From: a virus | Length of the DNA stretch: 32,906 nt | Direction: 5' to 3' (one strand) | IMG/VR virus record: IMGVR_UViG_3300050033_000100 | Coordinates: 1 to 32,906 of that record | In this document: positions 3 through 32,625 of the stretch, in pieces | Layout: each line of letters opens with the position of its first letter | Numbering within the stretch: position 1 is the stretch's first letter | Program-made: the position numbers and the translations under genes | The notes under the pieces: generated by a model | Databases searched by the model: none | What the model was told of the DNA's origin: nothing | What the model saw: only the letters and a program-made list of their open reading frames with translations

Positions 3-116
3 AAAGCTGTCGCCGCTGACTGGGCTGAGACCCACGGGGGCGAATCCCTGCGTGACGCAACGGATCTCGGGAGCCTCGAACTGCTGCGCGATGACCTCAA
101 GGTGAGTGTGTCATGA
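3..116 (+). CDS. C-terminal fragment of an unidentified early protein
   Basis: An open frame enters from the left edge and ends at TGA 114-116, giving 37 residues that end in LELLRDDLKVSVS. The stop overlaps the ATG of the WhiB gene at 113 (ATGA), the coupling seen throughout this operon, which supports it as real coding sequence. The visible part is acidic and probably helical, and too short to assign to a family. Its beginning lies outside the window. Confidence 0.6.
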   Translation, partial: KAVAADWAETHGGESLRDATDLGSLELLRDDLKVSVS

Positions 117-583
117 AGCCCGACTACGCAGCCCCGTACGACTGGCGCGACCAAGCCAGCTGCCTCGAGCACGACCAGGAGCTGTTCTTCCCGGTCGGCA
201 ACAACGCCGCCGCCCTACGCCAAACCGAGGACGCCAAGGCTGTGTGCCGCGGCTGCCCGGTCATGGAGCCCTGCCTCATGTGGGCGCTGGAGGCTGGCGT
301 GGTCGGCGTATGGGGCGGCCTCACCGAGGATGAGCGGCGCGCTTTGCGGAAGCGCACCCAGCGTGTGGCGGCCCGGGCGCGCGACCGTGCGGGACATGGG
401 ACCGCTGCGCGGTACAAGGTTCACCGGCACGCCGGTGAGGTCGCCTGCGATGCCTGTAAGGCAGCTGAAGCGCAACGCGCCAAGGCGCGCTACCGCGCGG
501 GTGAGGGTGTCGCCAAGCCGCGGGAGTACACGTCCAGGGGCAGCGTCGTGGGGACCTCGTCAGGCACCAGGCGCATCTCATGA
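113..583 (+). CDS. WhiB-family transcriptional regulator
   Basis: This 156-aa protein has the WhiB iron-sulfur domain at residues 10-80. The four cluster-ligating cysteines are C17, C45, C48 and C54 (C-x27-C-x2-C-x5-C), followed by the family's GVWGG turn at 65-69 and a basic segment (RRALRKR) likely to contact DNA. WhiB proteins carry a [4Fe-4S] cluster and usually act with the housekeeping sigma factor; they are confined to Actinobacteria and their phages. The C-terminal 75 residues are basic and contain a CDAC pair near residue 112, which is an extra feature. It overlaps genes on both sides by ATGA. The role is inferred: it may redirect host or phage promoters, as proposed for mycobacteriophage WhiB proteins. 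Confidence 0.93.
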   Translation: MKPDYAAPYDWRDQASCLEHDQELFFPVGNNAAALRQTEDAKAVCRGCPVMEPCLMWALEAGVVGVWGGLTEDERRALRKRTQRVAARARDRAGHGTAARYKVHRHAGEVACDACKAAEAQRAKARYRAGEGVAKPREYTSRGSVVGTSSGTRRIS

Positions 584-1050
584 CGGCCCAGCCCGCACCT
601 ACCCGCCGTGGCCCACCCTTCGGCCAATACCAGCCCCCGTTCATGTTCACCCCGCAACCCTGGGCCAACCGGGCGTTGTGCAGGGAGATCGGCCACGACC
701 TGTTCTACCCAGAACTCGGCGAATCCGTCCGTGAAGCCAAGAAGATCTGCAGACACTGCCCCGTCACAGCCGAATGCCTCGCTTACGCCCTGGACACGCA
801 TGAACGGTTCGGCGTATGGGGCAACACGACCGAACGCGAACGCCGCGAGCTCAGGGGTGTGAACGCCTGCCCCGACTGCGGCGACGCGTTCACCTGGCCG
901 GCCAACCGGGACCGGCACATCGTGCTGCGACACAACCCCGCCAACCCCCACGTGTGCACCGTGTGCGGGCAAACGTTCCAGTTCCCCGGACCACTGCTGC
1001 GGCATGTTGATGCGCGCCACCAAACCAGCCCGATTGAGGTGGCCATCTGA
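580..1050 (+). CDS. WhiB-like regulator fused to two C2H2 zinc fingers
   Basis: This 156-aa protein has an N-terminal WhiB domain with C34, C57, C60 and C66 and a GVWGN turn at 78-82. Two canonical C2H2 fingers follow: C97-x2-C100-x12-H113-x4-H118 and C126-x2-C129-x12-H142-x4-H147. The spacing fits classical zinc fingers exactly, with aromatic and leucine core positions also present. The start ATG overlaps the stop of the preceding WhiB gene. The two WhiB domains look like a duplicated pair, with the second having gained the fingers. It presumably binds DNA through the fingers while the WhiB part contacts sigma factor, which is inference. No frameshift or stop separates the two parts. Confidence 0.9.
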   Translation: MTAQPAPTRRGPPFGQYQPPFMFTPQPWANRALCREIGHDLFYPELGESVREAKKICRHCPVTAECLAYALDTHERFGVWGNTTERERRELRGVNACPDCGDAFTWPANRDRHIVLRHNPANPHVCTVCGQTFQFPGPLLRHVDARHQTSPIEVAI

Positions 1051-14335: not shown

Positions 14336-14814
14336 TGCCAACCCAGTCGCTTGCGGGGGTGATTGCCGCCATCCGGTCGTCGTTCACGTCGCTGTACGCG
14401 GGTCAGGTGGGCACTGATGGCACACCGGTGCTGGTCAGTGACGGCAACCCGGGGCAGGATGAGCCGTCCGCGATCGTGGCAGTCATGGACGTCAACGGTC
14501 CGATCACGCGGCCGACGTTGGGAACGAACCGGAGCAGGGAGATCCACGCCGAGGTGACGGTCATCATCAGCGTGTACACGCCGGGTGACGAGTCGGCGCA
14601 GCCGTTGTCGACTGACTGCGCGCTTGGTCTGTTGACGGTCCTCGAGCAGTACCTACGGACGAGCCCGCAGGAGCGGTTCGGCGGGGCTTGTCGTGATGCG
14701 TGGGTGTCGGATATCAAGATGCACCCTGAGGTTGCTGTGGACGCCACGACGGGTGATCCTGCTGGGCGTGTGACGACGATCGAGACGACCATGACGGCGG
14801 TTGTCCGCTACTAG
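14335..14814 (+). CDS. probable tail terminator or neck protein
   Basis: This 159-aa protein starts at ATG 14335 (TGATG overlap with the connector). It is an alpha/beta protein with a helix at the start (LAGVIAAIRSSFTSLY) and strands REIHAEVTVIISVYTP and TTIETTMTAVVRY, compatible with tail-terminator or stopper proteins encoded at this point. Its TAG stop (14812-14814) overlaps the stop of the opposing minus-strand gene in the shared palindrome CTAG. Confidence 0.6.
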   Translation: MPTQSLAGVIAAIRSSFTSLYAGQVGTDGTPVLVSDGNPGQDEPSAIVAVMDVNGPITRPTLGTNRSREIHAEVTVIISVYTPGDESAQPLSTDCALGLLTVLEQYLRTSPQERFGGACRDAWVSDIKMHPEVAVDATTGDPAGRVTTIETTMTAVVRY

Positions 14815-15200
14815 AACTTCCACATCTTCTCGTTGTAGTCAGCATGGTCTGCGTAGGGCAGGGCGAGGATTAGGACCGTGTCACAGAGCGCTGTGACTGG
14901 AGTGGTCGTCCAGTCGGTATGCGTGGCTGATCCGCATTCACCGCATATTGCTGGCATGAGCGGTTCGTGTTCTTTCCCGCAGTGGCACGGCTCGGGCTGG
15001 ATCGGCTTGTGCAACTCCACGATCCGCCGTTTCGCCTCACACTCAGCCAGGACGCGGGCAGGGTTCACGACAAGCCCGTCATGCTCCCATTCGTACCGCC
15101 CGAAGTATTTGGACCCGTACTTAATATCCAGTTCAACGGCTGGTCGAACCATCGCCTCATCCTCCGCGATCCGTGCCAGTAGGAACTCAGTCAGCATCAT
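14811..15200 (-). CDS. DUF6221-like protein (cargo copy)
   Basis: This 129-aa protein starts MMLTEFLLARIAEDE and contains VNPARVLAECEAKRRIVELH, three Cys-rich segments (CHCGKEH, CGECG) and the ending LILALPYADHADYNEKMW. This is the standard DUF6221 layout of actinobacteria and their phages: N-terminal helix, AKRRIVE helix, Cys segment, LPYADHPDY. Function unknown. It is the last gene of the minus-strand cargo, directly after the ribbon-helix-helix gene, and its stop overlaps the stop of the opposing tail gene. Paralogues lie at 28773-28934 and 29751-30152. Confidence 0.75.
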   Translation of the reverse strand: MMLTEFLLARIAEDEAMVRPAVELDIKYGSKYFGRYEWEHDGLVVNPARVLAECEAKRRIVELHKPIQPEPCHCGKEHEPLMPAICGECGSATHTDWTTTPVTALCDTVLILALPYADHADYNEKMWKF

Positions 15201-28944: not shown

Positions 28945-29754
28945 CTATCGGGTTACCGCGGCGGCGATGATGTCGAGTTCTGCGTCCGACGTCCACACAT
29001 AGCCCGCCGTGGTCGACACGGACGCGTGACCCATCGCCCTACTCACCGCGAGTAGGTTGGCGCCGTTCGCCAAAGCGATCGTCCCAAACCGGTGCCGCAA
29101 CTGGTGGAAGGTGGCATGGACGCCAGCTGTCTCGAAGGCCCGGTTCACACGCCGCTGAAGCACACTGGCGCTGCTCGGCTTCCCGCCGGCTGCCACGACG
29201 TTACCCCCGGTATTAGGCAGCAGGGCATCCAGCAGCAGCACGGACAGCCCTACCTGCCTCGTCTTGGAACCCTTGCCCAGGACCCGGATCCGGTTCAGCT
29301 CAAGGTCAATGTCAGCCCAGTCCTGAGAGGCCGCCTCAGAGACCCGCAGACCAGCCCACGCGCCCAAGGCTGCGGCGCGACGCATGTCGGGTGGCAGCAC
29401 GTCAAGGAGATGGTTCAGGTCAGCCCTGGACATGGGCCGAGGGAGGCCCTTTGGGACCTTGGGCGAGTCGATTCGGTGTGTCGGGTCGTCGGTTGGCGGC
29501 CGGTGTTCCCAGCGTCTGCACCACCGGTAGAACGATCGGAGGTTGGCGAGGTCGTTGGCGCGGCTGGCCGGTGCGTGGTCGGTGCGCGCAGCCCACCATG
29601 CCTCGACGTCCTCGCGGGTTGCCGTCCCGGCGCTGGGCATGGACCGGAGCGTGGCGAGCCGGCGCGCGGTGGTGTTGGTTGGGATGCCTTCGTTTATGCA
29701 CCATTGGAGCCACGCGATCGACAGCGGGTCAGTCAGCGGGATGGGGTGGCTCAT
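28945..29754 (-). CDS. tyrosine integrase
   Basis: From ATG 29754 (ATGA overlap with the DUF6221-like gene) the protein has 269 residues; ATG 29763 would add three. The N-terminal SAM-like core-binding domain (about 5-95) precedes the catalytic domain with the first Arg in WAGLRVSEA, Lys in GKGSKTR, the H-x-x-R box in FHQLRHRFG, the second His in MGHASVSTT and the nucleophile Tyr in TAGYVWTS. The set is complete. It has no N-terminal arm-binding domain, which makes it a small, simple integrase. It catalyses attP-attB recombination; the att core is not identifiable from this window alone. Confidence 0.95.
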   Translation of the reverse strand: MSHPIPLTDPLSIAWLQWCINEGIPTNTTARRLATLRSMPSAGTATREDVEAWWAARTDHAPASRANDLANLRSFYRWCRRWEHRPPTDDPTHRIDSPKVPKGLPRPMSRADLNHLLDVLPPDMRRAAALGAWAGLRVSEAASQDWADIDLELNRIRVLGKGSKTRQVGLSVLLLDALLPNTGGNVVAAGGKPSSASVLQRRVNRAFETAGVHATFHQLRHRFGTIALANGANLLAVSRAMGHASVSTTAGYVWTSDAELDIIAAAVTR

Positions 29755-30152
29755 GGCCGCCACTCCTGCCGGAAGTCCGGGTGGTCGGCGTAGGACAGCG
29801 CGAGGAGTTCGACCGTATCCAACGCGAACGTGCCGAGCTCATCGCATGAACACAGGTTGTAGATGATCTCGCTGCATCCCTCCACGATCCGCCGCTTCGC
29901 CTCACACTCAGCCAGGACGTGGACAGGATCGAACCAGACGACATACTCCATGACTAGCGCAGACCCGCGAGCCACGCTGACATTCCCTTCGTTTCGGACG
30001 CTGGTTTGGGTTATGAAGCGCTCACCCCTGGGGATCGACTGAGTGTTCACGAGCCACTTTTGTGGTGCATCGCCGGGGAGTGCAGGTTGTGCAGCCCGCG
30101 CCGTCTCCTCGTCTTCAGCAATCCGTGCCAGGAGAAACTCGGTGAGTGTCAT
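29751..30152 (-). CDS. DUF6221-like protein (lysogeny-block copy)
   Basis: This 133-aa protein runs MTLTEFLLARIAEDEETARAAQ, then FDPVHVLAECEAKRRIVEGC, a CSCDELG segment and the ending LLALSYADHPDFRQEWRP. The full DUF6221 pattern is present. It sits directly upstream of the integrase in the same leftward transcript, with ATGA overlap. Function unknown. Its N- and C-terminal segments closely match the copies at 28773-28934 and 14811-15200. Confidence 0.8.
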   Translation of the reverse strand: MTLTEFLLARIAEDEETARAAQPALPGDAPQKWLVNTQSIPRGERFITQTSVRNEGNVSVARGSALVMEYVVWFDPVHVLAECEAKRRIVEGCSEIIYNLCSCDELGTFALDTVELLALSYADHPDFRQEWRP

Positions 30153-31545: not shown

Positions 31546-31784
31546 CCTGGTCTGACCGGGACGAAGCCGGTCTCGAACTGAACGCCGCGAAGAAACACCC
31601 CCCACTGCTGGCCACCACCCACTGGGACCTGATCGTCCTCACCCGCTGGATGCACGCCGAGGACTACGACGTCGAGCGGATCCTAGACGCGGCTGCGGCA
31701 CCGTGGCAGTGGCGCGAGGAGTTGGCGCAGGCGAAGACCGACCTTGAGGCCGCCGTGGCCGCACACCCAGCAGGTGCGCTGTGA
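31542..31784 (+). CDS. hypothetical helical protein ending in AAHPAGAL
   Basis: This 80-aa protein is helical (SDRDEAGLELNAAKKHP, WDLIVLTRWMHAEDYDVERI, REELAQAKTDLEAAV). Its last residues (VAAHPAGAL) are encoded by the exact 127-bp repeat that recurs at 32780-32906, so the same ending is shared by the unrelated membrane protein at 32622-32813. GTGA overlap with the following small frame. Function unknown. Confidence 0.65.
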   Translation: MTWSDRDEAGLELNAAKKHPPLLATTHWDLIVLTRWMHAEDYDVERILDAAAAPWQWREELAQAKTDLEAAVAAHPAGAL

Positions 31785-31877
31785 GCATCTATATCGCAGG
31801 CACCGGCGCCGTCGACCCGAACCCAGGAGAGCCATCGTGACCGAACCGATCCGCTACTACAAGGCGACATGCCCGGA
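31751..31877 (+). repeat. 127-bp exact direct repeat, copy 1
   Basis: The 127 bases here are identical to 32780-32906, the last bases of the window, at an offset of 1029 bp. The base before each copy differs (31750 C, 32779 G), so the repeat begins sharply; its other end is cut by the window edge. It covers the end of one gene, the 19-residue frame and the start of the tetrapeptide-repeat gene. Confidence 0.97.
31781..31840 (+). CDS. possible 19-aa peptide between coupled genes
   Basis: GTG 31781 to TGA 31838-31840 encodes 19 residues ([18 protein letters not shown] after the start). It overlaps the preceding stop and the following GTG by GTGA on both sides, and its own 3' end supplies the AGGAGAG ribosome binding site of the next gene. 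It may simply be a coupling leader. It is duplicated at 32810-32869. Confidence 0.35.
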   Translation: MSIYIAGTGAVDPNPGEPS

Positions 31878-32625
31878 CGGGACGGACTTCCGCACCGGGA
31901 CCGTCGACTACGGCGCCGCGCTCATCACCGGTGATGTCGTCACCCACCCGAGCGTGAAACAGGTCAAAGATGACCCGGGCACCTACCTGTCGGTCAGTGT
32001 GTCACCCACGGACTGCACAGGGATGAAGTGGCCGTGCCGCCTGTTCCTGGTCCAACCGGTCGGGCGCGCACTGACGGCTGGTGATGACCTGCCATCCAAG
32101 CGTCGGCTGAGCAGGCTGCGTGTGACTGAGGAGTTGCCCGCGCATGAGGCGTTCGGCCCACAGGGTGAGCAGGTCGCTGCGCTGGTTGAGCGTGCGGGGC
32201 GGTTGACCTTCGCTGAGGGTCAAGCATTCGCCGCCAGGTACGCCGCCAGGAACGCCGCCAGGAACGCCGCCATCGACGCCGCCAGGTACGCCGCCATCGA
32301 CGCCGCCATCGACGCCGCCAGGTACGCCGCCATCGACGCCGCCAGGAACGCCGCCTGGTACGCCGCCTGGTACGCCGCCTGGGACGCCGCCTGGTACGCC
32401 GCCATCGACGCCGCCAGGTACGCCGCCATCGACGCCGCCAGGTACGCCGCCAGGGACGCCGCCAGGTACGCCGCCAGGAACGCCGCCATCGACGCCGCCA
32501 GGGACGCCGCCTGGTACGCCGCCTGGGACGCCGCCTGGGCGTTGGTCGTCAAAGACCTCATCACCCCGAAGCAGTTCGACACCCTTTACGGCCCATGGGC
32601 GTCCGTTTGCGGCGGCCCGTCATGA
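31837..32625 (+). CDS. two-part protein: conserved N-terminal domain and AAxx tetrapeptide repeats
   Basis: From GTG 31837 (AGGAGAG upstream) the protein has 262 residues. Residues 1-130 form a conserved globular domain of actinophage proteins ([47 protein letters not shown]). Residues 132-235 are 26 consecutive units of Ala-Ala-x-y, x being Arg, Ile or Trp and y Tyr, Asn or Asp, with Ile always followed by Asp. A short tail follows ([19 protein letters not shown]). The repeats predict a long Ala-rich helix. Function unknown. The start of a second copy appears at the right edge. Confidence 0.8.
32230..32541 (+). repeat. 26 tandem 12-bp coding repeats
   Basis: The segment is exactly 312 bp, 26 units of 12 bp, each GCCGCC followed by AGG, ATC or TGG and then TAC, AAC or GAC (the last unit ends GCG). 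Every unit keeps frame. By count the third residue is Arg 12 times, Ile 7 and Trp 7. Variation is limited to two codons per unit. Confidence 0.97.

Follow-up and report, generated by a model that had tools for sequence, protein, structure and literature searches.

Known WhiB proteins dock on region 4 of sigma-A, and in the sigma-bound state the WhiB tail adjoins the DNA (PMC10245118). WhiB7 reads the DNA upstream of the -35 element by means of a C-terminal AT-hook; WhiB3 contacts DNA through an Arg motif, and the C-terminal tail of WhiB3 is not needed for activation in M. smegmatis (PMC10245118). Zinc fingers of the eukaryotic C2H2 type have been reported to be practically absent in bacteria (PMC3541406), in agreement with a first-pass annotation of the DNA described here, which had called them rare in that domain of life and had singled out a phage gene in which two such fingers follow a WhiB domain.

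Here, we describe a computational analysis of that gene and of its relatives. The window analysed is the complete virus record IMGVR_UViG_3300050033_000100, 32,906 bases in length, which encodes a portal, a capsid protein, a tail tape measure, a lysozyme-type hydrolase, an integrase and a helix-turn-helix repressor, and which is therefore probably a temperate siphophage-like virus. The record is a virus of actinobacteria; its terminase has its nearest counterparts in Gordonia, Arthrobacter and Mycobacterium phages, and a Megablast search with the first 25 kb returned no related phage record. Elsewhere in the window, a protein without a Pfam match, encoded at 31744-32625 (+), contains a tetrapeptide repeat, AA[RIW][YDN], that corresponds to a 12-base tandem array of about 26 copies at 32229-32539, and two DUF6221 proteins are encoded at 14811-15200 (-) and 29751-30152 (-).

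The fusion gene and its zinc-finger tail

The frame of the fusion gene is open, and its product scores 81.4 bits against the WhiB family PF02467 in Pfam (cut-off 23.6), which upholds the earlier description of one 156-residue protein with the four WhiB cysteines (C34, C57, C60 and C66) and a GVWGN turn, in which N replaces the last G of the WhiB turn. The start codon overlaps the stop codon of the upstream WhiB gene in an ATGA junction (Table 1). An AlphaFold model of the fusion protein was built from ten sequences and is a modest one (mean pLDDT 65). When it was submitted to Foldseek, WhiB proteins in complexes with RNA polymerase or sigma-A4 ranked first (8dy9, E-value 1e-4; 6ono, 1.4e-3; 8cyf), and C2H2 proteins followed at lower ranks with weak E-values. 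In the model, the WhiB domain thus appears to keep the sigma-A4-binding fold, and by analogy with the WhiB family it is predicted to bind a [4Fe-4S] cluster and region 4 of sigma-A.

Table 1. Features of the two adjacent WhiB genes in the window
Feature	Residues	Nucleotides	Strand	Basis
Upstream WhiB gene, different tail (H...CDACKAAEAQRAKAR)		113..583	+	PF02467, 79.9 bits; tail by reading
WhiB-C2H2 fusion gene		580..1050	+	156 aa, ATG start, open frame
WhiB [4Fe-4S] / sigma-binding domain (predicted)	28-91	661..852	+	PF02467, Foldseek
C2H2-like finger 1	97-118	868..933	+	motif CPDCGDAFTWPANRDRHIVLRH; ligands C97, C100, H113, H118
Linker NPANPHV (7 residues)		934..954	+	direct reading; tail alignment to ZNF568
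C2H2-like finger 2	126-147	955..1020	+	motif CTVCGQTFQFPGPLLRHVDARH; ligands C126, C129, H142, H147

Both fingers follow the pattern C-x2-C-x12-H-x4-H with a phenylalanine at C+4, and the linker that joins them is as long as the eukaryotic TGEKPYx linker, with its proline at the corresponding position. The helix hydrophobic residue expected three positions before the first histidine is L139 in finger 2; in finger 1 this position is occupied by R110, where leucine is typical. Among 300,000 shuffles of the 75-residue tail, one exact motif arose in 0.04% and two in none, so that the first-pass annotation was right to place two correctly spaced fingers after the WhiB domain.

Profile searches were less generous to the tail. 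In contrast to the WhiB domain, which lies well above its cut-off, only finger 2 was seen by Pfam, at 21.2 bits for zf-C2H2_4 (cut-off 27) and 18.5 bits for zf-C2H2 (cut-off 25.2), and finger 1 matched neither family; because these scores fall below the cut-offs, Pfam alone would list neither finger. The first-pass annotation had itself named a miss against zf-C2H2 profiles as evidence against the fingers, and on the cut-offs such a miss is what was found. We therefore describe the tail as C2H2-like by motif and similarity, without Pfam membership. When compared with solved chains, the tail aligns to tandem C2H2 proteins such as ZNF568, with a best single-stretch i-Evalue of 0.0008; this is the fair value, as the whole-sequence E of 2.7e-22 is a sum over repeats and is thus inflated. 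In the AlphaFold model, finger 1 folds into two short strands and a helix (residues 107-118) in a beta-beta-alpha arrangement, with block pLDDT of 74-81, but finger 2 shows no helix and its pLDDT stays below 50. When the tail was modelled in isolation, with no alignment as input, the result was poor. We accept the fingers on the strength of the matches to tandem C2H2 proteins, the beta-beta-alpha model of finger 1, and the recurrence of such fingers in the corresponding position of other phage WhiB proteins.

Zinc tails and their apparent exchange among phage WhiB proteins

The upstream gene had been taken for a plain WhiB, and the fusion for its duplicate with a domain gained afterwards. The upstream protein is not plain, as its own tail carries an H...CDAC (H/CxxC) motif; similar H...CxxC tails are found in the phage WhiBs L085, L118 and L128. 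A recent duplication of the neighbouring gene is disfavoured by the identity between the two WhiBs of the record, which is 39% as against 56% (L051) and 60% (L098) for the closest other WhiBs, and by trees over 71 columns, in which the two fall in different parts, although the test did not reject a topology uniting the pair (p 0.075).

IMG/VR was surveyed by pattern scans and a profile search, and the matches were read frame by frame; since several of the scans selected for zinc motifs, the counts that follow are not frequencies. A single C2H2 finger follows the GxWG turn in five further phage WhiBs: L006, L051, L052, L065 and L050, the last of which is more divergent. These proteins have the domain order and the x12 finger spacing of the fusion, and they differ from it in possessing a single finger and, for L006, L051 and L052, in an N-terminal helix-turn-helix-like region (sub-threshold). 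The two-finger form was seen nowhere else in the IMG/VR survey, and the architecture is very rare.

Nor did broader comparisons yield a counterpart. Protein comparison found no close relative in IMG/VR, and among 50,697 phage records no match covered 80% of the whole fusion protein, the best identity being 56%, over the WhiB part, and nothing credible matched the finger tail alone. A pattern scan of 84,980 cellular species genomes gave no credible fusion, with a pattern narrow enough that it would miss L051, L052, L065 and L050; its lone match, on a Zetaproteobacteria contig (L009), was considered as a pointer to a cellular source and was judged to be chance.

Among the fetched loci, the best matches of the fusion protein are L051, L006 and L052, and these run through finger 1. 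One origin for all WhiB-C2H2 proteins was considered and not adopted: the tree places the fusion WhiB of the record apart from the L006 group, but a single C2H2 clade (without L050) is not rejected, at p 0.12. IMG/VR relatives of the record's terminase show 73-89% identity, with one at 100%, and several of them share metagenome numbers with L006, L051, L052 and L065. A conserved position of WhiB beside the terminase was also discarded, as no WhiB was seen in L159-L168, which are close relatives by terminase and whose DNA is mostly too short, L165 with its 7.6 kb of upstream DNA included.

In many phage WhiBs, from IMG/VR and from annotated phages alike, the site of the fingers is filled by Cys4-type tails. 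Those of Mycobacterium phage Jabbawokkie gp71, in which two Cys4 units stand in tandem, and of prophiGD91-2 gp46 resemble the tail of the fusion in being of zinc type and in their position, but they follow the pattern C-x2-C...C-x3-C (FCS-type) rather than C2H2. The tail thus looks like a swap site. L060 groups with L006 as its sister in the tree and has the same WhiB, but lacks the finger on it, indicating that the finger is non-essential in the L006/L060 group. A separate downstream protein with a C2H2 finger is present in L006, L051, L052, L060, L081 and L082; this, and the fingerless WhiB of L060, suggests that finger modules come and go within the group. In L006 (3259-3984), L051 (2645-3457), L060 and L081, this downstream protein has a region resembling a coiled coil and, at its C-terminus, a C-x4-C-x12-H-x4-H finger.

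A scan for tandem fingers of the spacing found in the fusion returned 12 IMG/VR loci, none of them with WhiB; one of the 12, L153, is of low complexity and is probably no finger array. L150 (3280-3921) is an endonuclease VII on a viral contig of 67% GC and bears two C2H2 fingers in tandem. By domain search, L151 matches DUF559 and weakly Vsr, and L152 weakly matches HNH; L147, L148 and L154 are endonuclease-like by reading only. The endonuclease VII of L150 and the proteins of L147, L151 and L154 share with the fusion two fingers of the C-x2-C-x12-H-x4-H type and the length of the linker, and differ in bearing these fingers on nuclease-like proteins without WhiB. Because tandem C2H2 fingers with such spacing are otherwise found in phages mostly on endonucleases, a phage source is plausible, and the finger module was probably acquired from the phage gene pool, with genes of this kind as candidate donors, and not directly from a eukaryote.

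Proposed promoter contact and competing readings of the tail

The best explanation of these observations, to which we assign a probability of about 0.5, is that the fusion protein is a phage WhiB-like transcription factor in which the tandem C2H2 module replaces the usual short basic or AT-hook tail and makes the contact with the promoter. As judged from other members of the family, the WhiB domain with its [4Fe-4S] cluster would dock on the host's housekeeping sigma factor at region 4, and this docking would put the C-terminus of the domain beside the DNA upstream of the -35 element. The two zinc-loaded fingers would then contact the upstream promoter DNA, and may guide the host's RNA polymerase to some phage or host promoters or divert it from them. 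The proposal of the first-pass annotation that the fingers give the WhiB protein a sequence specificity of its own is plausible, but the composition of the tail argues for caution. From residue 96 onward there is no Lys, and the 5 Arg are balanced by 4 Asp and 1 Glu, leaving no net charge, and the positions of finger 2 that usually contact bases (-1, 2, 3 and 6) are F, G, P and R, unlike those of well-studied DNA readers.

It is on account of these residues that promoter contact is put no higher, and that we keep in view a doubtful but serious reading in which the fingers form a module for protein-protein contact or structural support: WhiB would dock on sigma, and the tail would bind a partner from the phage or the host or stabilise the protein without reading any DNA sequence. 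Such a module would suit a neutral tail with unusual contact residues in finger 2, and the occupation of one site by C2H2, Cys4 and H/CxxC tails is what would be expected if a compact zinc-held tail suffices. Against it, the other tandem C2H2 fingers of phages accompany nucleases, for which DNA contact is the expected role, and in a WhiB bound to sigma the tail is adjacent to DNA (PMC10245118).

It is unlikely that the protein is instead a WhiB antagonist that competes with or represses host regulators of the WhiB2 type, the tail lending non-specific affinity for DNA or RNA. The model for such a role is the WhiB of phage TM4, which reportedly acts on host WhiB2. Among phage WhiBs, the TM4 protein alone is cited as having a function studied during infection (PMC8612146), and the predicted retention of the sigma-binding fold in the fusion would be compatible with antagonism; this role, however, leaves the retention of a two-finger tail unexplained, and the tail has no net positive charge. 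Finally, it is highly improbable that the tail has decayed to a remnant or shows its Cys/His pattern by chance, with no folded finger, since the sub-cut-off Pfam scores, the missing helix leucine of finger 1 and the poor model of the tail without an alignment are opposed by two full sets of ligands, a phenylalanine at C+4 in each finger, a linker of canonical length, the failure of shuffling to produce two motifs, and the presence of the same finger type in other phage WhiBs.

The one-finger versions in related viruses make the fusion look like one case of a repeated, apparently undescribed way to re-tail WhiB. A bolder and less likely reading is that actinobacteriophages repeatedly graft eukaryote-type C2H2 fingers, in tandem in the present case, onto WhiB, and so produce a class of regulators that dock on sigma and owe their choice of promoter to interchangeable finger tails. 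If true, a natural C2H2 fusion to a sigma-docking WhiB would mean that phages evolve promoter choice by tail swapping. Intact and tail-less phage WhiBs, comparable in a laboratory host by the promoters that respond, offer a ready test system.

Comparison with described WhiB and C2H2 proteins

WhiB, C2H2 fingers and other zinc tails on phage WhiBs are already known. The architecture that joins WhiB to C2H2 is real and rare, and it seems to be undescribed: a search of open-licence papers on WhiB with C2H2 or zinc fingers found none describing the fusion, and a survey of WhiB in actinobacteriophages does not mention zinc in its main text (PMC8612146). The first-pass annotation had reasoned that many described WhiB-C2H2 proteins would make the fusion ordinary, and no such set appeared in this literature.

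The fusion has in common with the Wbl family (WhiB1, WhiB3 and WhiB7, and the phage WhiBs of phrog_1333 and phrog_472) the four cysteines, the G[VI]WG turn and, as modelled, the sigma-A4-bound fold, and it departs from that family in carrying a tandem C2H2 module in place of the basic tail or AT-hook. Its tail shares the spacing, the conserved Phe and the 7-residue linker of eukaryotic tandem C2H2 proteins (ZNF568, PRDM9 and CTCF), from which it differs by H-x4-H in both fingers, by a linker that is not TGEKP, and by its junction to WhiB. Like the fusion, Ros/MucR and AFV1p06 are zinc-finger regulators outside eukaryotes. The Ros zinc finger has x9 spacing. AFV1p06, unlike the fusion, has a single finger that lacks one ligand His (PMC3541406). 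Finally, a WhiB-sigma factor fusion provides a precedent for WhiB joined to another transcription module (PMC6282962), the partner there being a sigma factor and here a pair of zinc fingers.
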